Shown piece by piece: positions 10,038 to 33,993 of a DNA stretch of 64,000 nucleotides. How positions within the stretch are numbered: the stretch's first letter is position 1; every line of letters starts with the position of its first letter. Under the pieces are notes generated by a model. That model was not told the DNA's origin, did not search any database, and saw only the letters and a list, made by a program, of their open reading frames with translations. The position numbers were made by a program, and so were the translations under genes. This stretch comes from Butyrivibrio sp. AC2005 (lineage in GTDB: Bacteria; Bacillota; Clostridia; Lachnospirales; Lachnospiraceae): contig NZ_KE384137.1 of NCBI RefSeq assembly GCF_000424145.1, positions 520,594 through 584,593 of the forward strand. Reading direction: 5' to 3'.

Positions 10038-10057
10038 TTATCAGGAAGGATTATTAT

Positions 10058-10234
10058 ATGCAAATGCACTGCGATGAATGTACTTATTACGAGTACGATG
10101 AAGATGATGAAGCTTATTACTGCGGAGTCGATATGGATGAAGACGACTACGCAAGACTGATGGGTAATTCCAAGAGTGAATGCCCATATTTTAGAAATAA
10201 TAATGAATACGAGGTGGTTAAACACCAGATGTAA
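10058..10234 (+). CDS. DUF6472 family small cysteine protein
   Basis: 58 residues, M-Q-M-H-C-D-E-C-T-Y-Y-E-Y-D onwards, with a strong Shine-Dalgarno sequence (aggaagg) 8 nt before the ATG. Four cysteines (CDEC near the start, C-G-V-D in the middle, and ECPYF near the end) in an otherwise very acidic, tyrosine-rich chain suggest a small metal-binding knuckle. The pattern matches what I recall of DUF6472, a family found mostly in Lachnospiraceae; its function is unknown. It follows the cNMP-binding-fold gene closely and is followed by a GC-rich hairpin. Confidence 0.8.
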   Translation: MQMHCDECTYYEYDEDDEAYYCGVDMDEDDYARLMGNSKSECPYFRNNNEYEVVKHQM

Positions 10235-10241
10235 CCCAGCA

Positions 10242-10265
10242 CCGCCCCAATATACATTGGGGCGG
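10242..10265. terminator. GC-rich hairpin between convergent genes
   Basis: Perfect 9-bp stem (ccgccccaa and ttggggcgg) with a 6-nt loop. No strong T-run follows on either strand, so termination efficiency is uncertain. It separates the DUF6472 gene from the ABC permease gene. Confidence 0.5.
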
Positions 10266-10279
10266 GCAAGTTGTTAAAG

Positions 10280-11311: not shown

Positions 11312-11327
11312 TTTGTCCTCCCGGCTC

Positions 11328-12824: not shown

Positions 12825-12835
12825 GTCTCCCTCCT

Positions 12836-13783: not shown

Positions 13784-13798
13784 AGAATCCTCCCATAA

Positions 13799-13850
13799 CC
13801 CCTCATCCGTCAGCTTCGCTGACACCTTCCCCCCTACCAGGGGGGAAGGC
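13799..13850 (-). repeat. dispersed hairpin repeat, copy 2
   Basis: Variant with the stem cagcttcgctg and ccttcccccc-taccag-gggggaagg. It lies between the binding-protein gene and the first permease gene, in the same orientation relative to transcription as copies 1, 3, 4 and 5. Confidence 0.85.
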
Positions 13851-13860
13851 ATAATATTAG

Positions 13861-14001
13861 TTGCCCCAACGCATATTAACATTGCCAGTTGAAAGGTATA
13901 ATATTAGTTGTCACAACGCATGTTAACATTGCCAGTTGAAAGGTATAATATTAGTTGCCACAACGCATGTTAACATTGCCAGTTGAAAGGTATGATATTA
14001 G
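13861..14001 (-). repeat. three-unit 47-bp tandem palindromic repeat
   Basis: Three consecutive 47-bp units begin at 13861, 13908 and 13955. Units 2 and 3 are nearly identical and unit 1 differs at a few positions. Each contains the palindrome atgttaacat (degenerate in unit 1) inside a longer imperfect inverted repeat (caac...gttg). The array starts at the stop codon of the binding-protein gene, which itself lies in the last unit. It would form a row of hairpins at the 3' end of that cistron. Confidence 0.9.
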
Positions 14002-19886: not shown

Positions 19887-19957
19887 GCAGGACTAGTACA
19901 TCGGTAGTATGTCAGCTTCCCAAGCTGAAGAGGCGGGTTCGACTCCCGTGTTCTGCT
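19887..19957 (+). tRNA. tRNA-Gly (anticodon CCC)
   Basis: A complete cloverleaf can be folded: acceptor gcaggac/gttctgc, D stem gtac/gtat, anticodon stem tcagc/gctga with loop ttCCCaa, T arm gcggg-ttcgact-cccgt and discriminator T. CCA is not encoded. It reads GGG glycine codons. A short T-rich stretch follows. It is transcribed divergently from mscL. Confidence 0.95.
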
Positions 19958-20197: not shown

Positions 20198-20836
20198 TCA
20201 AATCGTAATATCTTCCACATTCACAATCTTTAAGACAAATGCCTTTTTGGATGCACAGCTTACCATGTATTCCTCGTCAAGATTAAAGCTCTCAATATGC
20301 CATCCTTCCATAAAGTTATCATCCTCTCTGGGATCGATATTAAAGCCTTTCCCATCTGCTTTTAGAATAGCTTCAACCGATGTCCAGCTTTTCCCCCAGG
20401 AAAGCTTTGTATTATTATTCTCTTCCTTTTCAAGTCTTTCATAATATGTAGACGGAAGAACTCTTTTCAGTACATTCAGATTTAATCTGTCGACGCGCTC
20501 GATATCAATGCCTACAGGTGAATCTGATGTAGCAAGAATTACATATTGTCCGCTGTGCGATAAACTGAAGTGCTTATTGACTTCCATATTAAGCATCGGT
20601 TTTCCATACTCATTAAATGTAAGTTGATCATCCCTTGTCACCCCAAGATATCTTGCCAAAAGAAAGCCGGCACCGAGTTCCTCCTTTTTTCCTCTTGGAA
20701 CCCTGATTCGCTCATATTTTTTCGCATAATGGGGAGCAATGACAGACAGCAGCCTGTCATCCTCCCCATCCAGTTTTTCAATATTAAGAACATATACGTT
20801 TATTGTGTCCGCTTTTATAGTCTCATCAAAGCTCAT
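20198..20836 (-). CDS. 4'-phosphopantetheinyl transferase (Sfp/AcpT type), distal gene of operon
   Basis: 212 residues. The three Sfp-family motifs are present: NEYGKP with FSLSHSGQYV (P1/P1a region), VGIDIERV (metal-binding Asp and Glu) and WTSVEAILKADGKG. The enzyme transfers phosphopantetheine from coenzyme A to a conserved serine of carrier proteins. The operon also encodes a small acyl carrier protein (26413-26652), so this is probably its dedicated activator. It starts 18 bp after the MFS transporter gene and is followed by a strong terminator, which makes it the last gene of the unit. Confidence 0.9.
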   Translation of the reverse strand: MSFDETIKADTINVYVLNIEKLDGEDDRLLSVIAPHYAKKYERIRVPRGKKEELGAGFLLARYLGVTRDDQLTFNEYGKPMLNMEVNKHFSLSHSGQYVILATSDSPVGIDIERVDRLNLNVLKRVLPSTYYERLEKEENNNTKLSWGKSWTSVEAILKADGKGFNIDPREDDNFMEGWHIESFNLDEEYMVSCASKKAFVLKIVNVEDITI

Positions 20837-20854
20837 TATATCTTCCTGTTTGTA

Positions 20855-22111
20855 TTATTTTTCGTTGTTATTCATATTACGATATATAAATGTTAATACA
20901 ATTCCAAGAATAGATAAAGCCATAGCTGTAAAGTATGCTGCTTTATAGGTGCCTGTTGCCAGATATATCTTGCCTATCATGATAGGAGCAAAAAATCCGG
21001 AAAAAGCAAAACCGATAAACATTATTCCATAATTTACACTTGAGTACTTTGCTCCGAATTTTTCATTGGTAAATCCGGGATAGATACCCATGAAGCCACC
21101 AAAGCACAGTCCTATTATGCAGATTCCGAGATAAAGAGTAGCCACGCTTCCCTCTCCCGTGATAATCAGCATGAAAAGACCGGCAACCGAACAAAGAAGT
21201 AACAACGCAAGCGTATTTATCTGTCCTATAAGATCTGAAATATAGCCACCGAGAATTCTTCCTCCCGTGTTAAACAGCGCAAGTATTGAAACCACTACTG
21301 CTGCAGACTGCGAGGTCATAAGTACCTGATTCTGGGCTATCGGCGATGCCTGAGAGATGATCATCATTCCCATGAACGCGCCGCAGCACATGAGAACCAT
21401 CATTATATAAAATTCTTTTGTCCCCAGCATCTCTTTCCAGGTATAGTCTCTTGCCTTGTTAACAGAACCGCTTTTGCTGCTCTTGGAAACCGGCTTATAG
21501 CCATCAGGTATGAAATCATCCGGACAGGGAATAATGAATAATGATGCTGCAAGTACTATAACAACAATGGCTATACCAAGTATTTTGAATGCCATTGTAA
21601 CATCCATTTTTGAAATAATTGCATTGGCAATAAGGGGTACCAATACTGAACTGAGTCCATATGAAGCTGTGGCAATTCCTCCCACAAGCCCTCTCTTGTC
21701 GGGGAAAAATTTTACTGCATTACTTACCGTGCAGCCATAGGTCATGCCCATTGCCAGTCCGCAACAGATTCCAAATCCAAAAATCAGCACTGCTACAGAT
21801 CCTGCAAAACCACAGATAAGCATCCCCAGTCCAAACCATATTCCGCCTATCATTATGACAAGTCTCGGCCCAATGGTTCTAACAAGTTTTCCGCCGCCTA
21901 TCATTGTTATGGGTCCTACGACATTAGCTATTGAAAAGACTATTGAGAGACTGCTTGCCGTGACTGCATTCTTCCCCTCAAGTCCTAAAACTGCTGAAAT
22001 ATGTTCAGCCATAGGTGATGCAAAAACACTCCAGGCGTATAGTGCACCAATACATAAGTTAATCAGACAGCTGGCAATAAGCACCAACCATCTGCGTTTG
22101 GTTAAGTTCAT
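20855..22111 (-). CDS. MFS transporter, OFA (oxalate/formate antiporter-like) family
   Basis: 418 residues, 12 transmembrane helices. The N-terminus (KRRWLVLIASCLINLCIGALYAWSVFASPM) and the GMTYGCTVSNAVKFFPDKRGLVGGI region are typical of the OFA subfamily, whose known members move small carboxylates (oxalate/formate, pyruvate). It is probably the uptake or exchange system for the acid processed by this operon. It begins 15 bp after the metallo-hydrolase gene. Confidence 0.9.
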   Translation of the reverse strand: MNLTKRRWLVLIASCLINLCIGALYAWSVFASPMAEHISAVLGLEGKNAVTASSLSIVFSIANVVGPITMIGGGKLVRTIGPRLVIMIGGIWFGLGMLICGFAGSVAVLIFGFGICCGLAMGMTYGCTVSNAVKFFPDKRGLVGGIATASYGLSSVLVPLIANAIISKMDVTMAFKILGIAIVVIVLAASLFIIPCPDDFIPDGYKPVSKSSKSGSVNKARDYTWKEMLGTKEFYIMMVLMCCGAFMGMMIISQASPIAQNQVLMTSQSAAVVVSILALFNTGGRILGGYISDLIGQINTLALLLLCSVAGLFMLIITGEGSVATLYLGICIIGLCFGGFMGIYPGFTNEKFGAKYSSVNYGIMFIGFAFSGFFAPIMIGKIYLATGTYKAAYFTAMALSILGIVLTFIYRNMNNNEK

Positions 22112-22126
22112 TTTTAATCCTCTGTT

Positions 22127-22945
22127 TTATTTAATTTTTGTAGGCCTTTGTTCGACGATCAGCCCCACCGGCTCATCTCTTAGTGAATGAACGTGAAAAT
22201 ATCCTTCCCCGTATGGCGGTTTGGGATAAGTGTATTTTATGAATCTCTTTTCTTCAGTATTTTCAAGACAAGCTGCCATACTGTAAAGAATTTCTTTTTT
22301 TAATAGCTTATTGTTGTGTGAAACAAGGAAATAATCAAAGTCCAAGTCAATTGATTTTTTTATTGTTGATCGCTGCTCTTCAATCGAACCATGATTCTTG
22401 AATATTAGTGTAATTATTGGCGAAAGAGCGTCTCCTCCAAGAACAAGTCTGAGCTTTCTGAAAATGATTCCGACAGATCCGGCTGAATGTCCGGGAAGTT
22501 CTATTACCTCACCCTCAAGGTCTCCTAAATCGAATCTGCCAAAATCAAGATTTGCTATCTGCTTCCATTCTTTACAGCCGAAGGTTATCTCCTGCACTAT
22601 TGCATTTTCGGAATCCTGAGTTTTGTAATCATCCCCATCACCCATCTCCGATATCCATTTATTCAGTAATGCTTCATCATAGGTATCCAGGATGTTTCTG
22701 TCCTTTTCAGAAAGAAAGACTTTATCGAAAAAACGACTGCCACCAATATGATCAAAGTGTCCGTGACTTGCTATGACAAGAAGCGGGAGATCTGTTATTT
22801 TTCTTACAGCAGCATTTATATCATCCAATCCGCATCCTGTATCAAACAAAAGAGCTTTCTTAGCCCCAATCACAAGATTGGAGCAGGTTCCGAAAGCATC
22901 TTCAAGTATATAAACTTTATCACTGATTTTAATCGTTTTTATCAT
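22127..22945 (-). CDS. MBL-fold metallo-hydrolase
   Basis: 272 residues from the ATG at 22943-22945. It has the metallo-beta-lactamase core: the metal-binding motif SHGHFDHIGG (HxHxDH), a later His in ELPGHSAGSVGI and Asp in LVLGGDAL. Such enzymes hydrolyse thioesters, lactones or phosphodiesters in the cytoplasm. In this operon an acyl-thioester or lactone hydrolase would fit, but this is inference. The start overlaps the end of the DUF1097 gene by 17 bp, suggesting translational coupling. An upstream TTG at 22963 is a weaker choice. Confidence 0.88.
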   Translation of the reverse strand: MIKTIKISDKVYILEDAFGTCSNLVIGAKKALLFDTGCGLDDINAAVRKITDLPLLVIASHGHFDHIGGSRFFDKVFLSEKDRNILDTYDEALLNKWISEMGDGDDYKTQDSENAIVQEITFGCKEWKQIANLDFGRFDLGDLEGEVIELPGHSAGSVGIIFRKLRLVLGGDALSPIITLIFKNHGSIEEQRSTIKKSIDLDFDYFLVSHNNKLLKKEILYSMAACLENTEEKRFIKYTYPKPPYGEGYFHVHSLRDEPVGLIVEQRPTKIK

Positions 22946-23492
22946 GTCCTGGGAATTCACCAATTATTGCCTTCATGGCACGTTCTTTTCCAAAAATCGC
23001 TGAGCAAACTGTCATACCTGCAAAAACAAGTACAATAGTAAGAACAATTCCATAAAGGTAGAATGCAATAAGATGTATAGGTGTAAGCGGTACGCCTATC
23101 ATAAACACAAAAAATGTAGTCGCCATACCAAGGAAAAGACAAGGTATATTGCCTAATATTGTCTTTGCAAGAAAGCCTTCATGAATTGTTAATATCAAAA
23201 AGATAATAATAATTGTAGGTACTATGCCAACTACCGCCTCTGATGCAAAGGAGCGGAATACTTCCTGTAGTATACCATTTGCATAAGCCCATGCAATGCC
23301 ACATACATAACATATGATCATTGACGGGATTTTCTTCAAGTCTGCTCCAAGTGCAAAGAACATGAGAAGCGGTAAAAACAGCATCCAAATATACTGTGTA
23401 TAGCCGGTAAGTACAAATACCTGCATAAGAAGTGTGAGTACAACTGCTCCTGTAAGAGATTGTACGATTTTTACCTTCATTCTGTCACTCAT
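22929..23492 (-). CDS. DUF1097-like membrane protein
   Basis: 187 residues from the ATG at 23490-23492, which has aggagg 11 nt upstream. A longer in-frame reading extends through the repeat element at 23518-23613 and is rejected. There are about five or six transmembrane helices over almost the whole length (LTGAVVLTLLMQVFVLTGY, then SMIICYVCGIAWAYANG). It resembles the preceding gene product (23676-24179) in topology and in the pattern IxxGxxCGxxWA, so the two may be diverged paralogues forming a heteromeric membrane complex. Function unknown; its place beside an OFA transporter hints at transport. Confidence 0.75.
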   Translation of the reverse strand: MSDRMKVKIVQSLTGAVVLTLLMQVFVLTGYTQYIWMLFLPLLMFFALGADLKKIPSMIICYVCGIAWAYANGILQEVFRSFASEAVVGIVPTIIIIFLILTIHEGFLAKTILGNIPCLFLGMATTFFVFMIGVPLTPIHLIAFYLYGIVLTIVLVFAGMTVCSAIFGKERAMKAIIGEFPGHDKND

Positions 23493-23517
23493 TTCAAACC
23501 AATCCTCCTGTGTTTTT

Positions 23518-23613
23518 CCCCTCATCCGGCGCTTCGCGCCACCTGTCTTCGCTCCGCTTCGGTCCGCGCAAAGCAATCGTCCCCCGGACGATTTGCGCCC
23601 CCCAAGGGAAGGC
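23518..23613 (-). repeat. dispersed hairpin repeat, copy 3 (long form)
   Basis: A 96-bp copy with an internal extra hairpin (gcgcaaagcaatcgtcc, then ggacgatttgcgc) between the cccctcatccg end and the ggaaggc end. It lies between the two DUF1097 genes in the standard orientation relative to transcription. Confidence 0.85.
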
Positions 23614-23675
23614 TTTAATAGTATTCTTCCAAAATAGTGAAGATTATAATACTTTTCCTTCAAATATAGTTAAGA

Positions 23676-24179
23676 TTACTTTCCTAAAATCTTAACCAGC
23701 TTCTTCTGGAAGGCGTCAACTCCTATCCCCACGTAGACTACGCCTGCTATCATGGCTGCACCGATCTGAATCGGAAGTGTTCCTATATCTGCGATTGCCA
23801 TAGGTCCCATGATGGTAAGACCGATTGCCCAGCCACAAAGCCATGCCGGTGTAAAGATGAATTTTGATATACTCTCACCTATAAGAACGGCCAGCCCTCC
23901 CATAACAAAAAGCGTACAGTAAAGCTCTGCATTGGGATTAAAGCTCATCTTTTCCATTACGAATATAGCTATAACTGCCCAGATGTCACCACACAGAAAC
24001 CCTATTGTTATTTTTAGCGCATCACTTGCCTTGTTACCGTTTGCAACATAAAGTCCTGCACATATAAGGGCTACCGCTCCGGTTGTAATTCCCATAAATG
24101 GCGATAAAACAGCCCAAATAGGAGGAAGCAGTGCTATCCCTAAGGCAAGCGTGAGCTTATTTAATGTATTTTCGTTCAT
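23676..24179 (-). CDS. DUF1097 family membrane protein
   Basis: 167 residues with about five transmembrane helices, no signal peptide and a short cytoplasmic tail. The segments ALGIALLPPIWAVLSPFMG and KITIGFLCGDIWAVIAIFVM match the DUF1097 pattern (Escherichia coli YcdZ-like). The function of the family is not known. It follows the butyrate kinase gene by 41 bp and precedes a second, more divergent copy. Confidence 0.82.
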   Translation of the reverse strand: MNENTLNKLTLALGIALLPPIWAVLSPFMGITTGAVALICAGLYVANGNKASDALKITIGFLCGDIWAVIAIFVMEKMSFNPNAELYCTLFVMGGLAVLIGESISKFIFTPAWLCGWAIGLTIMGPMAIADIGTLPIQIGAAMIAGVVYVGIGVDAFQKKLVKILGK

Positions 24180-24220
24180 TTTTATATCTCTTTTCGTTTT
24201 ACTCTTTAGGTCCGCACTTT

Positions 24221-25333
24221 TTACTCAAAGTCAAAGCCTGTAAAGCAAGGTTTTCCTGTGTAATGCTTAAGTTCCTCTTCTCCGTCAAGAACACGGATTG
24301 CACCTGCAGCCATTGCTTCCATTTCAAACTCTCCGGGATATGCAAAAACAGGCGCGATGAAAGAACATGTATCAGTTATCTGCTGAACGAGATCCTTATT
24401 ATGGACCATTCCTCCCCCAAGAAGAATTCCATCTACCTTGCCATGAAGAACCACTGCCATGGAGCCAATGCATTTTTCAATTTGATATATCATGGTGTTC
24501 CAAAGCATCTCGGCATACTTATCACCGTTTGCTGCACGATTTGTGAGCTCAATTGCATCTGAGATACCTTCATGGCTTACAAATCCTCCGGACTTGGTAA
24601 TAAGTGGCTTAACATCAGCGACGCCAAGGTCATTCTTTTTCATATAATCGAGAAGATTCGCTACAGATATACTTCCACAGCGTGTGGGCGCCATAGGACC
24701 TTCTCCGCCGACAATATCAAAACCATCAACCATCTTTCCTTCTCTGTGAGCTGATACAGAAATTCCGCCACCTATATGACATACAATATAGTTTGCTTCC
24801 TCATATTTTTTATGAAGAACATTCTTACTGTGGCGAATCGCTGTCTCCTTCAGATTAAGAGAGTGAAGGTGAGCAAGACGATAAACGCCCTTAATTCCTG
24901 TCATTCTGGCAAGATCCTGATATTCATCAACATCAGGGGGATTAACTACCATTGCCCTGGCTCCGTTTTTGGAAGCAAACTCAGCTGCAAGCTGCGGACC
25001 AAGTGCAGCAGGATGAATAACACCGTTTGCCATGGTCTTTGCATGATTTAAAAGGAGCTCATCTACGTCGTAGGTTCCGCCTTCCATTGCAAAAAGTCCG
25101 CCACCACGTCCGACGAATACGTCAACATCATCAATTGATTGTCCAGCCTCTTTAAGAAGATCAAGTATCATGTTTCTGCGATACGGAAGCTGATCGCTTA
25201 TTGTCTCGTATTTTGCAAGCTCTGCCGCATCATGAGACACATTCTGTGTATAGAGGCATTCCTCACCTTCAAACAATGCTATTTTTGTGGAGGTTGAGCC
25301 CGGATTTATTGTAAAAACCTTGTATTTTTTCAT
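24221..25333 (-). CDS. buk: butyrate kinase (acyl kinase)
   Basis: 370 residues. The N-terminal phosphate loop FTINPGSTSTKIALFEGEE and the internal VCHIGGGISVSAHREGKMVDGF are diagnostic of butyrate kinase within the acetate/sugar kinase superfamily. It converts an acyl-phosphate and ADP into the free acid and ATP. The start codon overlaps the stop of the phosphotransacylase gene by 4 bp (ATGA), so the two are produced together. Members act on butyryl-, propionyl-, isobutyryl- and related phosphates, so the product here need not be butyrate. Confidence 0.94.
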   Translation of the reverse strand: MKKYKVFTINPGSTSTKIALFEGEECLYTQNVSHDAAELAKYETISDQLPYRRNMILDLLKEAGQSIDDVDVFVGRGGGLFAMEGGTYDVDELLLNHAKTMANGVIHPAALGPQLAAEFASKNGARAMVVNPPDVDEYQDLARMTGIKGVYRLAHLHSLNLKETAIRHSKNVLHKKYEEANYIVCHIGGGISVSAHREGKMVDGFDIVGGEGPMAPTRCGSISVANLLDYMKKNDLGVADVKPLITKSGGFVSHEGISDAIELTNRAANGDKYAEMLWNTMIYQIEKCIGSMAVVLHGKVDGILLGGGMVHNKDLVQQITDTCSFIAPVFAYPGEFEMEAMAAGAIRVLDGEEELKHYTGKPCFTGFDFE

Positions 25334-26334
25334 CTCTTCTCACCTGCCGCTCTTACTGCACTAATTACAATATTGCCCTTAAGCTCTGAAACCGGTGCAC
25401 TTCTTGAGCAGTCACATACAACCTTGTTAAATCCCTGAAGCATGGGACCGTATGCATCTGCGTGACCAAACTGTTGAATAAGCTTAACTGCAACGTTACC
25501 TACGTTAAGATCAGGCCAGATAACAACATTTGCCTTTCCGGCAACCTTGCTCTCTCTGTTTACTTTTTTCTGAGCTACAGCAGGGTTGATTGCTGCATCA
25601 AGCTGGAATTCGCCATCGATGGCAAGGTCGGGACGAAGCTCGTTTGCAATTTTTACTGCCTCAGTTACCTTGTCGATAAGCTCACCCTGTCCGCTTCCGC
25701 AGGTTGAATAGCTGACGCATGCACATCTGGGTTCCCAGTCAAGAAGTGACTTAACAGTGTCACAGGCAGCAATTGCGATACTTGCAAGCTGCTCGGAATT
25801 AGGATTTGTGCAAACGGCGCTGTCACCGATAGCAAGAAGTGAACCTTCGCTTCCGTCGTAGCCGGGAATATCACAAAGACCGATACTTGAGATTGTTGCA
25901 AGGCCGGGCTTAATACCAATAATCATCTGTCCAGCAAGAAGAACGTCACCTGTAGTGTAGTCGATTCCCGCGAAGGTTACATCTGCCTCATCGGCAGCCT
26001 GCATAACCATTGCAAACTGAAGCTTATCCTCCATGCGGCGTCTAAGTGCCTTCTCCTTAAGTCTTGTCTCAGGAAGAGCTGTGTATTTCTCCACAAGCAT
26101 TGTCTTGTAGTCCTCGTTGTTTACATCAACGATTGTAAATACTTCTTCCTTGTAGCCTCTCTCCTTGATAGCAGCCTTTATCTCGGCTTCGTCACCAACA
26201 AGAATAGGCCTTATATATCCCTCAGAGCCTGCTTCATAAGCAGCCTGCATCATCTTTTCATTAAGTGCTTCAGGGAATGCCACTCTCTGGGGATTCTGCT
26301 TTGCTTTTTCAAAAATTTTCTCTATTATGCTCAT
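25330..26334 (-). CDS. phosphate acyltransferase (Pta-type)
   Basis: 334 residues of the PTA_PTB family (PF01515). The C-terminal part (DLAIDGEFQLDAAINPAV, VIWPDLNVGNVAVKLIQQFG, and AYGPMLQGF) is closer to phosphate acetyltransferase than to clostridial phosphate butyryltransferase. It exchanges the CoA of an acyl-CoA for phosphate, giving the acyl-phosphate used by the overlapping kinase gene. The pairing of a Pta-like enzyme with a butyrate kinase is unusual and suggests a substrate other than plain acetyl or butyryl, or relaxed specificity. Confidence 0.88.
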   Translation of the reverse strand: MSIIEKIFEKAKQNPQRVAFPEALNEKMMQAAYEAGSEGYIRPILVGDEAEIKAAIKERGYKEEVFTIVDVNNEDYKTMLVEKYTALPETRLKEKALRRRMEDKLQFAMVMQAADEADVTFAGIDYTTGDVLLAGQMIIGIKPGLATISSIGLCDIPGYDGSEGSLLAIGDSAVCTNPNSEQLASIAIAACDTVKSLLDWEPRCACVSYSTCGSGQGELIDKVTEAVKIANELRPDLAIDGEFQLDAAINPAVAQKKVNRESKVAGKANVVIWPDLNVGNVAVKLIQQFGHADAYGPMLQGFNKVVCDCSRSAPVSELKGNIVISAVRAAGEKR

Positions 26335-26412
26335 TTTTCGCCTCTTTTAAATTGGCTCGCCTATTATACATAAGCGAGCCGAATTATTATTTTTATGTTT
26401 CTGAAATTCCGA

Positions 26413-26652
26413 TTACATCTCTTCTTCAATGAGATCTACGAGATCAGAAATTGTCTCGCATGCACTTGCATCAGCAAGCATAAGAGCTACATCAAGCTCA
26501 TTCTCGATTTCTGAAACAAGAGCTACCATCTGGACTGATGCTCCGTTTAAGTCTGTCTTGAAGGATGTGGACTCTGAAAGTTCAGAAACTTCCTTCTTGT
26601 AGGACATTGCTACCATGTTTAATACCTGATCTAAAATTTCCTGTCTGCTCAT
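26413..26652 (-). CDS. acyl carrier protein
   Basis: 79 residues, acidic, helical. The motif D-L-N-G-A-S-V-Q-M-V-A-L-V-S-E-I-E places a serine where phosphopantetheine is attached in carrier proteins (usual form DSL). The Asp before the Ser is replaced by Ala, which is seen in some specialised ACPs. It is followed by the phosphotransacylase gene and preceded by the DUF35 gene (15 bp). The operon ends with its own phosphopantetheinyl transferase, supporting a working carrier protein outside fatty-acid synthesis. Confidence 0.85.
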   Translation of the reverse strand: MSRQEILDQVLNMVAMSYKKEVSELSESTSFKTDLNGASVQMVALVSEIENELDVALMLADASACETISDLVDLIEEEM

Positions 26653-26667
26653 TCTTTATTTCTCCTT

Positions 26668-27090
26668 TTATTTAAAATACTTCTCATCCAGATCAAAGAT
26701 TACGGTCTTGAAGCCGCCATCGCGATCTATAATAGCTGCGTGAATGTCGAGAGGAAGCTGCTTGGAAAGCTCCTCACGATTCTTCTTGCTGATGCCGCGA
26801 ACTACTGCGTTAAGTCTTGTGCCTTCCTCGATTTCAACCTCGCCATAAGCGAACTTGCCCATCTTCTTGTACTCAGGCTTTGAGGAAAGTGCAGCGGGAA
26901 GAACGATTGAATGAAGCTTTGCTTTTCCGCTAAGTTCAACCCACTCAGTCTCATAGTTTCCGCACTCGTTGCATGCGTAAACCGGAGGGAATTCAACGTG
27001 TCCGCACTTAGGGCACTTGCGGCCCATGATTTTTCCTTCTTCTAAGGATGTATAAAATTTCTCAACGATTTTTTCTAATTTGATAGCCAT
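26668..27090 (-). CDS. DUF35 zinc-ribbon/OB-fold protein (thiolase partner)
   Basis: 140 residues. A rubredoxin-like zinc ribbon (CPKCGHVEFPPVYACNECG, about residues 25-43) is followed by an OB fold (AKLHSIVLPA, then GTRLNAVVRGI). DUF35 proteins bind SCP-x-type thiolases and help channel or hold CoA substrates, as known for archaeal thiolase/HMG-CoA synthase complexes, steroid aldolases and PhlB. The gene starts 15 bp after the thiolase gene, so a complex of the two products is expected. Confidence 0.92.
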   Translation of the reverse strand: MAIKLEKIVEKFYTSLEEGKIMGRKCPKCGHVEFPPVYACNECGNYETEWVELSGKAKLHSIVLPAALSSKPEYKKMGKFAYGEVEIEEGTRLNAVVRGISKKNREELSKQLPLDIHAAIIDRDGGFKTVIFDLDEKYFK

Positions 27091-27105
27091 GGTTAATATT
27101 CCTCC

Positions 27106-28413
27106 TTAGTCCATTGTTCGAATGATGATAGCGGCTACGTTCTGAGCACCGCCATATCCGCGAAGCATAGTTGTTTTGGGCAGTTTCTTAACCTGGCGAT
27201 CACCACATTCATTCCACATCTGCTTACATGCTTCATACATGTCTGCAAGACCTGATGCTGCGTGAGCGTGTCCGAAGGAGGTTCTTCCGCCGTTTGAATT
27301 GATGGGCTTATCACCATCCCATGCGGTACGGCCATCGCAGATGTACTTCCAGCCTTCACCGTAGGGAAGATATCCTGCAATCTCAGCTGATACAAGGTGT
27401 GATGTGATGATAAAGTCATTTGCAAAGAACAGATCAAGATCATCTCCTGAAAGGCCTGTTGACTCATAAACCTGCTTTACTGCTTCCTCAGTTGCACGAA
27501 CCTCGAAGTGAGGTGTTGTTGCCTCGCATGCAGCACTTCCGATTCCGAGAACCTCAATGGGCTTATGCTTTAAGTTCTTTGCGATTTCAGGAATCTTCTC
27601 TGTTGCGCATACGATACAAGCTGCAGCGCCGTCACACTTAAGCTCAAGGCCGCCGGCACGAAGGAAGTCACCCATCTTAGGGTTGTAAGGTGAATTCATG
27701 TACTCATCAAGAGTCATGCCTGCCTTTTCAGCAAGCTCTTCATAGGTTGTTCTCTCGATTGCAAGAGGGTTAACTGATGCATTTCTTCTGTTATTGATGC
27801 ACATTGCATTAAGAGTGTTATTCATATCCTCTGCGGATATTCCTCTTGTGCGCACATACCACTCTGCTGCATCGTCATAGATGAGTTCCTGACCTGCCAT
27901 AAGGCTTCTTGTATAGGTTCTGTCATAGAGCCATGAAGTAGTCTTAAGGAACTTCTCCATTGTCATCTTGTCGCGCTTGTAAGGATGCTTGGGTGTCTCA
28001 ACATTGTCAGCGGGGCTTGGAGTACTGTCACCAAACTCAACCGCACCTGTGAGAACACAGTCATATTTTCCTGAAGCAACTGCGTTTACAGCCTGCTCGA
28101 TAGCAAGGTATCCTGTGCAGCATGCCTCGGAGTGGTGGATTGAACCCTTACCCTTCATACCGAACCAGTTGGCAATCTGTACGTTGGGTGTGAGGTAGTT
28201 AGAGCCATTCAGCGGGCTGGCACAGCCGTGGAAGTAGAAATCAACATCCTGAGGATTTACTCCTGCATCTTCCATAGCCTTAAGTGCTGCATAGCCGAAT
28301 AATTCGCCTTCTGTGAGGCCGTTTGTTTCTTCATTATCTACTGTGTACATGAAAGGTGTGCAGCCGGCACCGATAATGGACACACTACGTGAGTATTTTC
28401 CGAATTTTTTCAT
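27106..28413 (-). CDS. thiolase-superfamily acyltransferase (SCP-x type)
   Basis: 435 residues from the ATG at 28411-28413 (cgaggtt upstream). A longer frame reading into the 27-bp tandem array, which would give a repeated K-T-L-K-A-F-P-K-G leader, is an artefact. The nucleophile cysteine is present (HHSEACCTGYLAIEQAV) and the thiolase GHxxxAxG motif appears as GHAHAASG. The usual C-terminal CxG base cysteine is not obvious (RGYGGAQNVAAII), as in other SCP-x/PhlC-like members. It should make or break a carbon-carbon bond on a CoA or ACP thioester together with the DUF35 protein. Cleavage would feed phosphotransacylase and kinase. Confidence 0.88.
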   Translation of the reverse strand: MKKFGKYSRSVSIIGAGCTPFMYTVDNEETNGLTEGELFGYAALKAMEDAGVNPQDVDFYFHGCASPLNGSNYLTPNVQIANWFGMKGKGSIHHSEACCTGYLAIEQAVNAVASGKYDCVLTGAVEFGDSTPSPADNVETPKHPYKRDKMTMEKFLKTTSWLYDRTYTRSLMAGQELIYDDAAEWYVRTRGISAEDMNNTLNAMCINNRRNASVNPLAIERTTYEELAEKAGMTLDEYMNSPYNPKMGDFLRAGGLELKCDGAAACIVCATEKIPEIAKNLKHKPIEVLGIGSAACEATTPHFEVRATEEAVKQVYESTGLSGDDLDLFFANDFIITSHLVSAEIAGYLPYGEGWKYICDGRTAWDGDKPINSNGGRTSFGHAHAASGLADMYEACKQMWNECGDRQVKKLPKTTMLRGYGGAQNVAAIIIRTMD

Positions 28414-28443
28414 TATATTAACCTCGTTAAATTTTCTATGCTT

Positions 28444-28488
28444 CCCCTCATCCGGCGCTTCGCGCCACCTTCCCCCCAAGGGGAAGGC
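28444..28488 (-). repeat. dispersed hairpin repeat, copy 4
   Basis: Same core as copy 1 (cccctcatccg, GGCGC/GCGCC hairpin, ccttcccccc-aaggggaagg). It abuts the 27-bp tandem array, which appears to have grown from its right half. Confidence 0.85.
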
Positions 28489-28649
28489 TTTCAGAGTCTT
28501 TCCCTTGGGGAAGGCTTTCAGAGTCTTTCCCTTGGGGAAGGCTTTCAGAGTCTTTCCCTTGGGGAAGGCTTTTAGAGTCTTTCCCTTGGGGAAGGCTTTT
28601 AGAGTCTTTCCCTTGGGGAAGGCTTTTAGAGTCTTTCCCAAGAGAAAGG
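28488..28649 (-). repeat. six-unit 27-bp tandem hairpin array
   Basis: Six units begin at 28488, 28515, 28542, 28569, 28596 and 28623. Each reads ctttYagagtctttccc then ttggggaagg, and the last is degenerate. Every unit contains the stem cttyccc/ggggaag. The array lies between the Fe-S gene stop (28664) and the thiolase start (28413) and would be transcribed as a row of short hairpins dividing the redox half of the operon from the thiolase half. Confidence 0.92.
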
Positions 28650-28663
28650 CTTAGAAGCTTACA

Positions 28664-29239
28664 TTACTTTCTCTTACACGGAATAGGTTTAGTGGGGCAC
28701 TTGGGCTTTTGTGCGCCTGCCATGACGATTGCATCCTCGTCACATGCGCTCATGCACTTTCCGCAAAGTGAGCATTCGTCCATTACAATTACGTGTACGA
28801 ACTTATCTTTTCCAAGGATTGCGTCATCCTCGCAGACATCCATACATTCACCGCAGCCCACACACTTACTTGCAAGAATGTGGTAGGTCATGAACTTTTT
28901 ACATACTCCTGCACGGCAGCCCTTCTTAGAAATATGCTCATCAAAAATGTCACCGTAATTACTAAGTGCTTCCTTAACAGCATCCGCAATATCTTCTCCG
29001 TCTTCGCAAAGAGACTGAGTTTTCATCATATCTGAAAGATCCTGCATAAGAGCGATGTCACCGGGACGTCCCTTCTTTTCGGTTATATCCTTCAGTATCA
29101 TTTCAAGCTGTGTGATTCCTTCATATCCAAAGACACATTTCCCGCAGTCCTTGCAGGGGTGGCTCTGAACTTCCTTAAGAAGGACATCAACGACGCACTT
29201 ATCTTCTTTTAATTCTCTGATCTTATCTGCGCTACTCAT
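28664..29239 (-). CDS. Fe-S electron-transfer protein (NuoF C-terminal-like plus 2x[4Fe-4S])
   Basis: 191 residues. The first half resembles only the C-terminal Fe-S part of NADH dehydrogenase subunit NuoF (HPCKDCGKCVFGYEGI, then SLCEDG); the FMN/NADH-binding part is missing. The second half is a bacterial ferredoxin with two CxxCxxCxxxC clusters (CVGCGECMDVCEDD and CSLCGKCMSACDED). It can relay electrons between the neighbouring pyridine-nucleotide oxidoreductase and the flavoprotein reductase. It lies 10 bp after that oxidoreductase gene. Confidence 0.88.
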   Translation of the reverse strand: MSSADKIRELKEDKCVVDVLLKEVQSHPCKDCGKCVFGYEGITQLEMILKDITEKKGRPGDIALMQDLSDMMKTQSLCEDGEDIADAVKEALSNYGDIFDEHISKKGCRAGVCKKFMTYHILASKCVGCGECMDVCEDDAILGKDKFVHVIVMDECSLCGKCMSACDEDAIVMAGAQKPKCPTKPIPCKRK

Positions 29240-29249
29240 CTTTTCCTCC

Positions 29250-31337
29250 TTAATACTCGTTCCAAAGCTTTACTTTGGATATTGTTGTTCTAAGATCGCA
29301 CTGAAGGCATCTGCTTGCTTCGCATTTCGCCTGATCACAGGTAAAGGGCTTCTCTATGGCATCAAAACCGCATTTTCTCTTCTCAGGCTCCATCATTGCA
29401 GCTTCATTTCTGGATAGATCAGCAAAGCCATCTATGCGACCGATATATTTCTCCGGAGCAGTTCTCTCTGTAAGAGTCTCACTGATATCACCGTCTCCGC
29501 CGAGGAATTTATCTATAGCAATCGCTGCATCTCTTCCGCCTGCAATTGCTTCGATAACAGATCTTGTACCTGTAACTACATCACCTGATGCAAAGACTCC
29601 TTCCATACTTGTAGCACTGTCTTTTGCGGCAATGTAAGGACCATGTGTGAGCTCAAGGCCCATCTTGTCAGTTCCTTCAGGCTTCTGGCCAACTGCAAAA
29701 ATTACATTATCTACTTCTACTATCTGGTTTGAACCTTCCTCAAGTTCGATAATGGCCTTTCTGTTTTCATCAAAGTAGAACTTGTTAACCTTCTGAATTT
29801 CTACTCCTGTAGCCTTAGTATCTCCTGTTATTCTAAGGAAGGAATGAGCTGCATGAAGAATTACACCTTCCTCTTCACCCTCTCTTCTCTCCTCCTCAGA
29901 TGAAGTCATCTGCTGGAGATTCTCAAGGCACGCGATATGCACTTCCTTAGCTCCCTGTCTGATAGCTGTACGGGCACAGTCATAAGCAACATTTCCGCCG
30001 CCAAGAACCATTACCCTGTCGCCTACGGGAAGAGGATTTCCCTGTCTTGCAGCCTTGAGGAAGTCTGCGTTTACATAGACGCCTTCAAGGTCATTTCCTT
30101 CAATAGGAAGCTTTGTTCCCTGATGTGTGCCGATTGAAACCAGGACGGCATCAAACCCGTCTGCTAAGAGCTTTGCAGGTTCTTCTGCTGCTACGCCTGT
30201 TTTCAGGGTGATTCCTGACTCTAAGATTGTATTTATCTCTCTGTCTAAAAGCTCATCAGGAAGTCTGTAGGAAGGAATACCATAGCGGCACTGTCCGCCG
30301 GCTTTTTCGTTCTTCTCAAATACAGTTACTTCATGTCCCTTCTTTGCAAGGTAATATGCACCTGTAAGACCTGAAGGGCCTGCTCCTATAACAGCAACCT
30401 TCTTGCCGGTAGGTGCATCCTTTCTTACATGCTTTTTCCACTCGCCACTCTCATTTGTAGCAGCTGCTCTCTTAAGTCTGCAGATAGATACAGGTGAGTT
30501 AAGTTCACCTCTCTTACACTGACTTTCACAGTTTCTTGTGCAGACAGATCCGAGAGTCTCAGGGAAAGGAACCTTTTCTCTGATAATTGCAGTAGCCTTA
30601 TCAAAATCGCCTTCCTTAATGCTTCTGATGTACTCAGGAATATCTATATGTGCAGGGCATGTACTTCTGCAGGGAACTACATTTTCCTCATAGGTTCTCT
30701 CAGGTTTCATGAGCTTAAATGCATCAACGATTGAGCCTGTGGGACAAACCTCGATACATGCGCCGCAGAATCTACAGCCTGCTTCCTTAAGGCTCTTTCC
30801 TTCAGGGATACCTGCTCTGATTCCAATGTCCGTCTTTATATAGTCAAGGACTTTAACACCGCGCATATCCTGACATGCTCTGATGCAGCGTCCGCATCTT
30901 ACGCATCTTGTGAAAAGATGTGAAATCAAAGGATTGCTTTCATCATTGGGAACCGGTCTTGACTTTTTCCTCCAGCGCTCGGGACTTACTCCCATGTACT
31001 GGTACATTGACTGCAGTTCGCATTTTCCGTATTTGGGGCATCCTGTACAGTCAGCAGGATGAGTGGCAAGTATGAGCTCCATGGCTGTTTTTCTTACCTT
31101 TTCAGCCTCGGGGCCATTAACTGTGATCTTCATGCCATCTGTCACAGTTGTTTTACAAGAGGGCACAGCCCCCTCCACTCCGTCTATCTCGACAGAGCAG
31201 AGGCGACAACCTCCCTTTGCTTCCAGATCGGGATGGGAGCAAAGGTGCGGAATAAAAACGCCTGCTTCAAGGGCTGCATCAAGTACTGATGCGCCTTCTC
31301 TTGCCTCTATTTCTTTTCCGTCAATAAAAATCTTCAT
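29250..31337 (-). CDS. multidomain Fe-S/FAD oxidoreductase (NuoG-like N-terminus plus GltD-like domain)
   Basis: 695 residues. Domains in order: 2Fe-2S ferredoxin (about 1-80; CSHPDLEAKGGCRLCSVEI), the His-Cys cluster segment of NuoG/hydrogenases (HPADCTGCPKYGKCELQ), two [4Fe-4S] clusters (CVRCGRCIRAC, CRFCGACIEVC), then a glutamate-synthase-small-subunit-like part (about 225-690) with its own cysteine region and two Rossmann motifs (VAVIGAGPSGLTGAYYLAKK for FAD, VMVLGGGNVAYDCARTA for NAD(P)H). It should accept hydride from NAD(P)H and split it into single electrons along the Fe-S chain to the 28664 protein and the flavoprotein reductase. The gap to the next gene upstream is 20 bp. Confidence 0.9.
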   Translation of the reverse strand: MKIFIDGKEIEAREGASVLDAALEAGVFIPHLCSHPDLEAKGGCRLCSVEIDGVEGAVPSCKTTVTDGMKITVNGPEAEKVRKTAMELILATHPADCTGCPKYGKCELQSMYQYMGVSPERWRKKSRPVPNDESNPLISHLFTRCVRCGRCIRACQDMRGVKVLDYIKTDIGIRAGIPEGKSLKEAGCRFCGACIEVCPTGSIVDAFKLMKPERTYEENVVPCRSTCPAHIDIPEYIRSIKEGDFDKATAIIREKVPFPETLGSVCTRNCESQCKRGELNSPVSICRLKRAAATNESGEWKKHVRKDAPTGKKVAVIGAGPSGLTGAYYLAKKGHEVTVFEKNEKAGGQCRYGIPSYRLPDELLDREINTILESGITLKTGVAAEEPAKLLADGFDAVLVSIGTHQGTKLPIEGNDLEGVYVNADFLKAARQGNPLPVGDRVMVLGGGNVAYDCARTAIRQGAKEVHIACLENLQQMTSSEEERREGEEEGVILHAAHSFLRITGDTKATGVEIQKVNKFYFDENRKAIIELEEGSNQIVEVDNVIFAVGQKPEGTDKMGLELTHGPYIAAKDSATSMEGVFASGDVVTGTRSVIEAIAGGRDAAIAIDKFLGGDGDISETLTERTAPEKYIGRIDGFADLSRNEAAMMEPEKRKCGFDAIEKPFTCDQAKCEASRCLQCDLRTTISKVKLWNEY

Positions 31338-31357
31338 CTACCTGTAACCTCTGTTAT

Positions 31358-32851
31358 TTATTCAAAATCATCAAAGTCCTCGGAACCTGCTGATGCGTTC
31401 TCACCTGCGATACGTCCGCTGTTGAGGCAGAATCCCATTGTGTTTCCTGAGAGGATGAAAGGATAGCTGTCACCGAAGATGTTGCAGGCATCTGTTCCTG
31501 CTGCATAGAGTCCGGGAATAACCTTTGCATCCTGTGTGAGAACCTGTGTCTTGTGGTTGATCTTTACGCCGCCAAGTGAGCCGTATGCACCAACGTTCTC
31601 TCTGCAAAGATAGAAAGGTGCCTTCTCGATGGGCTGCATGTATGCGCGATCTTTCTCGAAGATCTCATCGAAGCCCTTCTCGCACATCTCGTTGTACTCT
31701 TCGATCTGAGCCTTGAGACCTTCAACATCGATGCCTGCCTTCTCAGCCAGCTCTTCGATTGTGTCTGCCTGTACGATGGGCTCATATCCATCTGCAAGGT
31801 CTCTGTTCCACTGCTCATCGAAGTGATCGAAAAGATCGTGAGGGTGTACATGAGAAACGATGTCGGGACCCTTTTTCTTATACTTTTTAAGGAGCTTGCT
31901 GTCGAAGATTGAGTAAGCAACCTTTCCGGGCTGAGCTGCGATTGCGTTACCTGTGAAGGTTGTGTTTGCAATCTGATCCTCAGGCATGAATCTCTGTCCG
32001 TTTCTGTTTACCCAGAGGCAAGGCTGACGGAAAGCACCGTCAAGGATGAAGTGGTTCATGTTGTCAGGAAGCTGATACATAAGCTCCATGATGCAAGGCT
32101 CGTGGCCAGCGCCTGCTTCCCATGCCATCTTGATTCCATCGCCCTTCATTCCGGGAACTGCGAAGTTGTAGATTGTGTTGCCGTACTCGAACTCTGTCTG
32201 CTCTTTGATCATCTCCGGGTTGTCACCGAATCCGCCTGTGCAGATGATTACTGCATTTGCTCTTGCTTCGATCTCTTCACCGTTCTTATCTGTTGCGATA
32301 ACACCTACAGCAGCGCCATCCTCCATGATGATCTTCTTAACAGGTGTCTCGAACTGGAAGTCTACGCCAAGCTCCTTAGCCTTCTCTGTCATTTTCTTTG
32401 TCATAGCTGTTGCGCAGCGAGGTCCGGGCATTCCGCCGTCCTCGGGCTTAACAACGTGCCATGTAAACTCACCATCTGAATAAGCTCTTGTAGCCTCAGG
32501 TGCACTGAAAGCTCTCTGAACTCCAACAAACTCAACGCCCATGTCCATAAGCCAGTCAATTGTGTCACCTGACTTGAAGTAGTAGTCTCTTACCATACGT
32601 GCATCTACACGATAGTGTGTGAAGTACATGTGCTTTCTGAATGCCTCACCGGGTGTAAGTGCGATCATGTGATCCTTCTGGATCCTACTACCAACACCAA
32701 GAGGGCCCATTCCCATGTTTGCAGCACCTCCTGTTGTGGATGACTTCTCAAATGTGATTACACTTGCTCCGTTCTCTGCTGCTGCGATACTTGCTGCAAG
32801 ACCTGAAAGGCCTGCTGCTACTACGATTACGTCTGCGTTCATCTGTTTCAT
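31358..32851 (-). CDS. FAD-dependent reductase, fumarate reductase flavoprotein family
   Basis: 497 residues of the FAD_binding_2 family. The N-terminal dinucleotide motif reads VVAAGLSGLAAS, with alanine where the first glycine of GxGxxG is usual. Later comes AVIICTGGFGDNPEM, and VNRNGQRFMPED carries the arginine that acts as proton donor in flavocytochrome fumarate reductases. The C-terminal ISG region is seen as LYAAGTDACNIFG. There is no haem or FMN_bind domain, so electrons must come from partner proteins, here the Fe-S proteins encoded next door. Family members reduce fumarate, urocanate, cinnamates or enones, or desaturate steroids. The substrate here is not evident. Confidence 0.88.
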   Translation of the reverse strand: MKQMNADVIVVAAGLSGLAASIAAAENGASVITFEKSSTTGGAANMGMGPLGVGSRIQKDHMIALTPGEAFRKHMYFTHYRVDARMVRDYYFKSGDTIDWLMDMGVEFVGVQRAFSAPEATRAYSDGEFTWHVVKPEDGGMPGPRCATAMTKKMTEKAKELGVDFQFETPVKKIIMEDGAAVGVIATDKNGEEIEARANAVIICTGGFGDNPEMIKEQTEFEYGNTIYNFAVPGMKGDGIKMAWEAGAGHEPCIMELMYQLPDNMNHFILDGAFRQPCLWVNRNGQRFMPEDQIANTTFTGNAIAAQPGKVAYSIFDSKLLKKYKKKGPDIVSHVHPHDLFDHFDEQWNRDLADGYEPIVQADTIEELAEKAGIDVEGLKAQIEEYNEMCEKGFDEIFEKDRAYMQPIEKAPFYLCRENVGAYGSLGGVKINHKTQVLTQDAKVIPGLYAAGTDACNIFGDSYPFILSGNTMGFCLNSGRIAGENASAGSEDFDDFE

Positions 32852-32869
32852 TTATATACACCTCCCAAT

Positions 32870-33814
32870 TTAGATACCCTTAAAAGTTTTTTCCTTATAT
32901 CTGATGATTTTCTTACCAACAATTTCTCTGTTTTCGGGATTTTCGAAGAAGCCGCCCTGTGTACGTCCGATTTCTTCAAGATGTCTTGCTCTTCCCTCAA
33001 CTGTTGTACGATCCTTTAACAGGCCGTCCTTCTGAATAACAAATTTCCACTTGCCATCCTCAGTCTGCTCAAGATTTCCGCCTGCTCCGCAAACCTGACA
33101 CTCGATAGGATAGTGAAGGCCATCCCACTGAGGTTCTCCAAGAACAAGTGCGTTTGAATGGCAGTTAGGACACCAGCCCATGTTTTCATCACCAAGCCAG
33201 CCTCTCTTCTCAACAGGAGTCTTAACAGCCTTGATAATGTTTTCACCCATCTTGTGAGCTCTCGCTATAAGCTCATCATCAAGAAGACACTGAGCGGGTC
33301 CTGGTACTCTGGTTGCAAGAATCATGTCAACAACCTTCATATCTGTTGTGAACATTGTTGCCTGAAGTCCTTCAAGAGCCATGGACTGCCATGCTCTGGT
33401 TGATCCGCCTACTGAGATAAGTCCGGCAACTCTGTCTCTGTGTTCAATTGCACCGATTGTCTCAAGGAATGCCGTCTCATAGCTAAGGCTTCTCTGAGCG
33501 AATGTCAGATAGTTGGCGGATGGCATCAGATCATATGTAGGAACTGAATAAATAACCGCATCCTGGTTGAGCAGTACGTCCATGATTTTCTTTTTGTCAT
33601 CCTTATCATCAAGAACGCAGCCAACATTCTTGCCCTGGGACATACCGATTGTGCAGGATGTGCAGCCTGTGCAATCAAGGATGTTGTAGTCCCTTAAGTT
33701 AATCATTGTTACCTCAGCTCCTGCCTCCTCACAGGCGATAAGAGCCTCCTTTAACAAAATTTCGCTGTTACTGTTTTTTCTTCCGGCAGTAACCCCCATT
33801 ACTTTGATACTCAT
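32870..33814 (-). CDS. NADPH-dependent FMN reductase-type flavoprotein with zinc ribbon
   Basis: 314 residues. Residues 1-200 have the flavodoxin-like FMN_red fold (KVMGVTAGRKNSNSEILL phosphate loop, and YSVPTYDLMPSANYLTF). A CTGCTSC cysteine cluster (about residues 50-56) recalls iron-sulfur flavoproteins. A C-terminal zinc ribbon follows (WCPNCHS...CQVCGAG, about 215-245) with a tail of about 65 residues. It is the first gene of the operon, divergent from the PucR-type regulator, and probably supplies reduced flavin or electrons to the flavoprotein that follows 18 bp later. Confidence 0.87.
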   Translation of the reverse strand: MSIKVMGVTAGRKNSNSEILLKEALIACEEAGAEVTMINLRDYNILDCTGCTSCTIGMSQGKNVGCVLDDKDDKKKIMDVLLNQDAVIYSVPTYDLMPSANYLTFAQRSLSYETAFLETIGAIEHRDRVAGLISVGGSTRAWQSMALEGLQATMFTTDMKVVDMILATRVPGPAQCLLDDELIARAHKMGENIIKAVKTPVEKRGWLGDENMGWCPNCHSNALVLGEPQWDGLHYPIECQVCGAGGNLEQTEDGKWKFVIQKDGLLKDRTTVEGRARHLEEIGRTQGGFFENPENREIVGKKIIRYKEKTFKGI

Positions 33815-33936: not shown

Positions 33937-33952
33937 TCCGACAAATGTCGGA
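33937..33952. promoter_or_regulatory. 16-bp palindrome, candidate operator of the divergent operon/regulator pair
   Basis: Perfect inverted repeat tccgaca-aa-tgtcgga in the 179-bp space between the FMN-reductase gene (start 33814) and the PucR-type regulator (start 33994). A symmetric site beside a divergent regulator gene is a typical binding site for that regulator. The region also has A/T-rich promoter-like stretches, but no strong -35/-10 pair on either strand. Confidence 0.5.
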
Positions 33953-33993
33953 TGCAACTTAAAATTACGAAAAAATGCGGGAGAACCAGTAAA

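Follow-up and report, generated by a model that had tools for sequence, protein, structure and literature searches.

What would a bacterium do with two flavin-dependent reductases, a thiolase, an acyl carrier protein (ACP), a phosphotransacylase (Pta) and a butyrate-type kinase (Buk) encoded in a single run of genes? Such a run lies on the minus strand at positions 20198–33814 of a 64,000-nucleotide stretch (hereafter the window) of contig NZ_KE384137.1 of Butyrivibrio sp. AC2005. In our reading these genes serve catabolism: they would break down a neutral enone of plant origin, most probably a polyphenol or something polyketide-like, and gain ATP from it. We put the probability of this reading at about one half. 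All fourteen open reading frames (ORFs) that an earlier, sequence-only reading had assigned to the set are present, and their family labels were confirmed by Pfam and NCBIfam profile searches. From the first gene to the last, they are:

32870–33814, minus: FLR-family flavin mononucleotide (FMN) ene-reductase, 314 amino acids (PF03358)
31358–32851, minus: FrdA-like flavin adenine dinucleotide reductase, 497 amino acids (PF00890)
29250–31337, minus: NAD(P)H oxidoreductase with a NuoG N-terminus and a GltD/NfnA-like part, 695 amino acids (PF13510, PF10588, PF14691, PF07992)
28664–29239, minus: electron carrier with a NuoF C-terminus and 4Fe-4S domain, 191 amino acids (PF10589; PF00037 in two stretches)
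27106–28413, minus: thiolase, 435 amino acids (PF22691/PF00108), with nucleophile Cys98 and His382
26668–27090, minus: DUF35, or ChsH2-type, Zn-ribbon partner, 140 amino acids (PF12172)
26413–26652, minus: dedicated ACP, 79 amino acids (PF00550), with Ser39
25330–26334, minus: Pta, 334 amino acids (PF01515)
24221–25333, minus: butyrate-kinase-family acyl kinase, 370 amino acids (TIGR02707)
23676–24179, minus: DUF1097 membrane protein a, 167 amino acids (PF06496)
22929–23492, minus: DUF1097 membrane protein b (PF06496, 31.3 bits against a cut-off of 24.6)
22127–22945, minus: metallo-beta-lactamase-fold (MBL) hydrolase (PF00753)
20855–22111, minus: OFA/monocarboxylate transporter of the major facilitator superfamily (NF049980, SfMCT, 398 bits; lactate-carrier cut-off of 320 reached)
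20198–20836, minus: Sfp/AcpT-type phosphopantetheinyl transferase (PPTase; PF01648, 27.9 against a cut-off of 25)

The centre of this set is conserved well beyond the window. A thiolase search at E 1e-60, which admits paralogues down to 43% identity, covered 299 genomes of the family, with close to one genome for each genus, and found the thiolase in ten, eight of them with a close copy (at least 74% identity). A collection of named genomes has 130 loci that encode a thiolase relative, of which the best 80 were kept. Because antisense ORFs upset longest-ORF calling in GC-rich relatives, stop-to-stop ORFs were counted instead, in the 63, 54 or 41 of the 80 loci that had enough flank for the respective test. 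The ACP is present in 63 of 63 loci, pta in 59 and DUF35 in 57, where at least one apparent DUF35 miss (L092) is a fusion to the thiolase; buk lies near in 52 of 54. The complete thiolase–DUF35–ACP–Pta–Buk block is found in 46 of the 54, and in eight loci (L029, L030, L032, L033, L034, L035 with split frames, L038 and L071) the full order FMN reductase–FrdA–NuoG/GltD–NuoF–thiolase–DUF35–ACP–pta–buk–DUF1097 is kept. The conserved gene order and the five-gene block exceed chance. At L035 (Eubacterium plexicaudatum ASF492, 7205–14218) NuoG/GltD and buk are broken across several frames, and this copy may therefore be decaying or contain sequencing errors.

The reductive front end is linked to the constant block but separable and variable. 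At the 41 loci with at least 8 kb on each side, counted on either strand, we found FrdA (at least 150 bits) in 21, NuoG/GltD in 23, NuoF in 22 and an FLR-family protein in 32 (at least 60 bits; 22 at 300 bits or more), together with DUF1097 in 31, a PucR-type regulator in 23, a PPTase-like match (Sfp or AcpS type) in 20, MBL in 13 and OFA in 12. Eight loci (L042, L043, L045, L050, L053, L055, L058 and L060), which overlap in part with these 41, have the redox genes beside the thiolase block but divided from it by a divergent PucR gene. Of 19 genomes examined, the window's own included, 17 have an FrdA homologue (E 1e-80) at some place. The earlier proposal that a reductive part, a thiolase–DUF35 pair with its own ACP, and Pta/Buk form one conserved set is supported, with FrdA at about half of the loci. 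Wide separation of the redox and thiolase blocks in relatives, which the sequence-only reading had named as evidence against itself, is half seen, in the FrdA count and the PucR-split loci.

The nearest named thiolase loci come from Butyrivibrio and unclassified Lachnospiraceae strains; Butyrivibrio sp. INlla16 (L038) and VCD2006 (L029) are among the carriers. Most carrier records have titles from Lachnospiraceae or from Clostridiales that lack a family placement; Oscillospiraceae also occur, as does a single member of Erysipelotrichaceae, Floccifex porci. Record titles mention the gut of cattle, goat, sheep and deer, and other carriers are strains from the mouse, pig or human gut. The Floccifex porci thiolase (89% identity) nests among Lachnospiraceae in the tree, which suggests that the set reached this species by transfer.

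How might the block work? Gene fusions in relatives, of thiolase to DUF35 and of DUF35 to ACP, provide good evidence that thiolase, DUF35 and ACP act as one machine. Thiolase and DUF35 form a single ORF in L092 and L113, and DUF35 is fused to one ACP domain in L123 and L125 and to two in L122 and L124. In all four DUF35–ACP fusions the PP-binding domain exceeds its Pfam cut-off; zf-ChsH2 does so in L124 and L125 and falls slightly under in L122 and L123 (23.1 and 22.2 against 23.2), which the window DUF35 matches with 69–70 bits. The four fusions make up one side of a branch in the tree (support 100/100), and L116, L117 and L120, which have a separate ACP gene upstream, make up another (100/100); L124 additionally carries an acyl-ACP thioesterase. 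The catalytic residues are retained as well. Cys98 and His382 are present in 35 of 35 thiolase sequences, down to 43% identity. In the ACP alignment, 89 of 90 rows keep Ser39 and the other has a gap there; the window and some copies of it are among these rows. The thiolase residue H62, present in 34 of 35 sequences, could be the counterpart of PhlC His56, the phenol-ring activator. We infer from this arrangement that the acyl group passes from Cys98 to the ACP. At the paralogue locus L126 (8256–11254), one DUF35 gene lies between two family thiolase genes, a possible thiolase–thiolase–DUF35 complex.

The AlphaFold2 model of the thiolase (mean predicted local distance difference test, pLDDT, 87.3) has fold matches of 18–26% identity only. 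These spread over the archaeal thiolases 7yvy and 4yzo, eukaryotic SCP2 thiolases and a series of DUF35-partnered enzymes, namely BbsB (7pyt), the archaeal thiolase/HMG-CoA synthase complex (6esq), PhlC (5m3k/9skh), MucABC, Sal and Ltp2, so that the fold points to no single group. The presence of the nucleophilic Cys98 fits thiolase chemistry; the steroid aldolases Ltp2 and Sal act by retroaldol cleavage of the steroid side chain. BbsAB, the benzoylsuccinyl-coenzyme A (CoA) thiolase of anaerobic toluene breakdown, resembles the pair in being a catabolic thiolase with a DUF35 partner. It differs in acting on CoA esters, and the window proteins stay below the family cut-offs (90.2 against 750 bits for BbsB, 27.1 against 250 for BbsA); BbsAB is not known to work with an ACP. 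The chemical precedent is PhlC of PhlACB, the 2,4-diacetylphloroglucinol acyltransferase (Friedel–Crafts acylase) of Pseudomonas, which likewise combines a Cys/His thiolase with a DUF35 subunit. The PhlC cysteine accepts an acyl group from acylphloroglucinol: in crystals soaked with monoacetylphloroglucinol, the density could be accounted for by phloroglucinol and an acetyl group on Cys88 (PMC6392133). PhlC is 18–19% identical to the window thiolase, however, and PhlACB has a KAS III-like PhlA subunit with no counterpart among the fourteen proteins, which instead include an ACP, Pta and Buk and are presumed to be catabolic.

The likeness to PhlC and MucABC, both biosynthetic acyltransferases, invites the opposite direction, in which a short acid would be activated by Buk and Pta at the cost of ATP, for thiolase–DUF35–ACP to condense into an acylphenol or small polyketide. 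An ACP with a dedicated PPTase would suit such a role, but the fourteen genes include no ketosynthase, acyltransferase or KAS III partner; the PucR-type control, lactate-type carrier and NAD(P)H-fed reductases appear catabolic, and glycoside-cleaving genes lie beside some paralogue loci. We therefore hold biosynthesis to be very doubtful. ATP formation would be the natural direction for the Pta/Buk set, whose kinase reaches its family cut-off (TIGR02707, 360.1 bits against 289.1).

What, then, do the reductases reduce? The FMN protein has a single relative in the PDB at E 1e-3, namely 7d38 (E 2.8e-29), which is FLR, the flavone reductase of Flavonifractor plautii (PMC7862272). It shares with FLR the sequence family and the substrate-site residue H271, which in a MAFFT alignment of 50 proteins, the window's and 49 from thiolase loci (26 close, 24 distant), is kept in 49, with one gap. 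The plain FMN or flavin reductase label given to it earlier must therefore yield to membership of the FLR ene-reductase family. Identity to FLR is 29.6% over 297 columns, which places the window protein in a different subfamily, with probably another enone as substrate. At L065 and L074 extra proteins 59% identical to FLR lie within the same cluster, and matching contig coordinates place a third such copy (97% identical to that of L065) at the edge of L062. FLR-family genes would be expected near the block at less than 0.1 per 21-kb stretch, a rough figure from 3–18 first-look candidates per genome. FLR cannot itself accept electrons from NAD(P)H, and the chain that supplies it is described as unknown (PMC7862272); the present operon, by contrast, includes an NAD(P)H flavoprotein of its own. 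This NuoG/GltD protein, whose PDB kin include 9bov and 9n5u (NfnA), is the probable electron input.

The FrdA-like protein is closest in NCBIfam to vinyl phenol reductase (VprA), whose cut-off it does not reach (334.1 against 600 bits). By eye, the alignment with flavocytochrome c3 places T, Y and I at R402, H504 and R544, residues of the catalytic, carboxylate-binding set; their loss makes a carboxylate, and with it an unsaturated acid, an unlikely substrate. This bears directly on the pathway of the sequence-only reading, in which an imported unsaturated or oxo acid is reduced, put on CoA or ACP and thiolysed in fermentation. The carboxylate-type transporter, thiolase, Pta and Buk would all serve that pathway, but the FMN protein is kin of FLR, no CoA ligase or CoA transferase occurs among the fourteen genes, and acid export suits the transporter equally well. 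We regard the imported-acid version as quite improbable, and the unsaturated acid in particular lacks support as the substrate. The absence of a hydratase, a 3-hydroxyacyl dehydrogenase and a CoA ligase from the fourteen genes, also part of the earlier description, does stand.

We envision the catabolic module as follows. The NuoG/GltD flavoprotein would take electrons from NAD(P)H and, together with the NuoF-type Fe-S protein, pass them to the FLR-like and FrdA-like reductases, which would saturate activated C=C bonds. The reduced product would expose a 1,3-dicarbonyl or an aromatic enol form; Cys98 of the thiolase would attack one carbonyl and the C–C bond would be cleaved, for which PhlC with acylphloroglucinol provides a precedent. 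The acyl group would then move to the phosphopantetheine of the ACP, which the fusions suggest is kept beside the thiolase by DUF35. Pta would convert the acyl thioester and phosphate into an acyl phosphate from which Buk would form ATP, with no CoA ligase spent, and the acid would leave by the OFA/monocarboxylate carrier, perhaps with help from DUF1097. The PPTase would convert the ACP to its holo form, and PucR would control the operon. In its most specific and tentative form, which we hold possible but would not favour, this reading makes acyl-ACP rather than acyl-CoA the energy-rich intermediate of the catabolism: thiolase–DUF35–ACP would cleave C–C bonds of reduced plant polyphenols and load the acyl group directly on the ACP, Pta would carry out the phosphorolysis of the acyl-ACP and the butyrate-type kinase would yield ATP, the module having spread by transfer among gut Firmicutes with interchangeable FLR-type reductases as a front end that sets the substrate.

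Is the substrate a plant phenolic? Across the 299 genomes, in tests that assume independent genera, the thiolase shows three associations: of the ten thiolase genomes, seven also encode an FLR ortholog (15 of 299 overall, p=1.8e-8), seven the window-type FMN protein (14 of 299 overall, p=1e-8) and five a member of the phloretin-hydrolase family (p=2e-4); in the eight close-thiolase genomes the corresponding numbers are six, six and four. FLR and the phloretin-hydrolase family also go together (11 of 15, p=1.2e-11), the latter family being found in 21 of the 299 genomes at E 1e-3, in 19 of them over the Pfam cut-off. The window's own genome has a further locus on one strand (L141 815–10855; G000:C5, about 133.8–143.9 kb) with a chalcone isomerase family gene (PF18232) and an FLR relative 47% identical to FLR, between which lie 2-oxoacid:ferredoxin oxidoreductase subunits, a phosphotransbutyrylase-like (Ptb-like) gene, a butyrate kinase and an OFA carrier. 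The locus probably acts on flavonoids and includes a separate acyl kinase pair.

A Pfam survey of neighbours covered 52 of 110 listed proteins plus one other, hand-picked, so that its counts do not amount to a census. Genes at the more distant thiolase–DUF35 loci include a GH3 beta-glucosidase (L117), a 2-hydroxy-3-keto-glucal hydratase-like gene (by second-best PDB match) with a GFO/MocA oxidoreductase (L119), a URO-D/MtaA-like gene far under the MtaA cut-off (L124) and a PhlG/phloretin-hydrolase-family gene (PF18089; L125). At L119 and L121 the thiolase–DUF35 pair has genes on both sides that resemble a glycoside-oxidation set (xylose-isomerase-like TIM barrels, GFO/IDH/MocA, aldo-keto reductase), the families having been scanned at L119 and L121 placed by members of the same clusters. 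From all this we infer a plant phenolic or related enone as the substrate class.

Several observations weigh against the proposed module. The phloretin-hydrolase family occurs in 2 of 29 named thiolase carriers, the same rate as 21 of 299, chalcone isomerase in none of the 29 (the same query gives 9 matches in the 299 genomes, three of them in the ten thiolase genomes) and strict FLR in six of the 29; a flavone–chalcone route is thus not general. We accordingly dropped the phloretin-hydrolase co-occurrence as support for a flavanone-to-dihydrochalcone route, given its two discordant rates, and the window's own genome has no gene of that family. In the FMN protein, D103, G106 and T279 of FLR are lost from the window type, mostly to Q, S and Q, and W149, kept in 50 of 50 by MAFFT, is unpaired in the HMMER pair alignment. 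Of the 41 loci, 20 have no FrdA. Pta falls under NCBIfam cut-offs (TIGR00651, 249.9 against 311.2 bits). Sequence stretches examined at 4 of the 11 paralogue loci (L118, L119, L121 and L126) hold no ACP, so that it does not accompany every member of the wider family. The choice of acyl acceptor, ACP or CoA, the identity of the acyl group and the direction of the pathway are themselves proposals.

The scarcity of chalcone isomerase and phloretin hydrolase in most carriers would be explained if the ring itself were the target: a 1,3-dihydroxyarene of the resorcinol or phloroglucinol type would be reduced to a cyclic 1,3-dione, which the thiolase would open to an oxoacyl-ACP that feeds ATP formation. 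PhlC binds phloroglucinol and accepts resorcinol (PMC6392133), and known anaerobic phenol routes typically couple reductive or oxidative dearomatisation with retro-Claisen ring cleavage (PMC10470551). However, dihydrophloroglucinol cyclohydrolase and triacetate acetoacetate-lyase found no family match among the fourteen proteins, the rest of the genome not having been searched, and FLR, the sole characterised relative of the FMN protein, is reported as limited to flavones and flavonols (PMC7862272). We consider ring cleavage unlikely, and retain the enone-reducing, acyl-cleaving module as the preferred account.

The remaining genes and the layout add detail to the operon. The model of DUF1097 protein a is all-helical (pLDDT 92.3) and has no PDB fold match at E 0.001; the one plausible hint, a resemblance to anion channels of the plant ALMT type (probability 0.94, E 0.5), was not significant and was set aside. 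The MBL hydrolase has no PDB sequence kin at 1e-6, and the PPTase scores 48 bits with NF007676, under the cut-off of 174. The short gaps described earlier are found for the most part (78 bp or less, or overlaps, among them 4 bp between pta and buk and, if MBL starts at ATG 22945, 17 bp between the MBL and second DUF1097 genes), but two gaps are long. One, of 183 bp, precedes the second DUF1097 gene, whose start is probably near 23492; a 32-bp repeat in two copies lies between the two DUF1097 genes at 23616–23678. The other, of 250 bp between NuoF and thiolase, follows from the thiolase start, most likely ATG 28413 rather than the TTG 28641 of the ORF tool, since the latter frame runs through a tandem repeat array; nine relatives have 12–91 bp here (15–94 with the stop codon). 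Two features flank or interrupt the set:

28475–28652, no strand: 27-bp tandem repeat array in the NuoF–thiolase gap, not part of the machine
33952–35505, plus: PucR/CdaR-type transcription regulator (PF13556, HTH_30), divergent, kept adjoining the operon in close relatives

The array comprises about six copies of its unit, translatable as repeated GKTLKAFPK; for a query reaching into it, 28 of 30 match rows cover the repeat end only, nearly all of them elsewhere in the window's own genome. Other tandem arrays lie at 13846–14003 (47 bp, 3.4 copies) and 60294–60457 (12/36 bp, 13.7/4.5 copies). The PucR/CdaR-type gene is the probable regulator of the operon. At the other end, the terminator claimed earlier corresponds to a hairpin with a T-rich tail (20089–20068) 3' of the last gene; it is only suggestive, because the scan gave 25 such sites against a mean of 12.4 in shuffled sequence, about twice as many. 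A tRNA gene (19887–19957) follows, between the operon end and the mscL gene.

How does the module compare with described pathways? The anaerobic phloroglucinol cluster of Clostridium scatologenes likewise joins reductive dearomatisation and retro-Claisen cleavage to ATP from acyl kinases (PMC10470551), but its cleavage enzymes are absent from the fourteen, and the portion of that paper drawn on here describes no ACP or DUF35. Phloretin hydrolase (PHY/PhlG, PF18089) also splits acyl-phloroglucinols in flavonoid breakdown; it does so by hydrolysis, so that the bond energy is not saved, whereas the thiolase route would conserve it as acyl phosphate. The terms 'thiolase' and 'acyl carrier' do not appear in a Catenibacillus flavonoid paper (PMC11170127), and among the papers listed by searches of an open-access library no title or abstract start describes the set, in keeping with the earlier view of an undescribed pathway. 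The parts are of known kinds; what is new is that a thiolase, presumably catabolic, is combined with an ACP of its own, fused in some relatives, and with Pta and Buk.

If the proposed function is correct, gut bacteria would gain ATP from plant phenolics by a route that none of the papers listed by these searches describes, with an ACP serving catabolism; if acyl-ACP is indeed the intermediate, the route would do the work of phloretin hydrolase while saving energy and needing no CoA ligase. The operon also suggests how FLR-type ene-reductases may receive their electrons, a gap stated in PMC7862272, and provides a setting in which DUF35–ACP fusions and DUF1097 can be tested.

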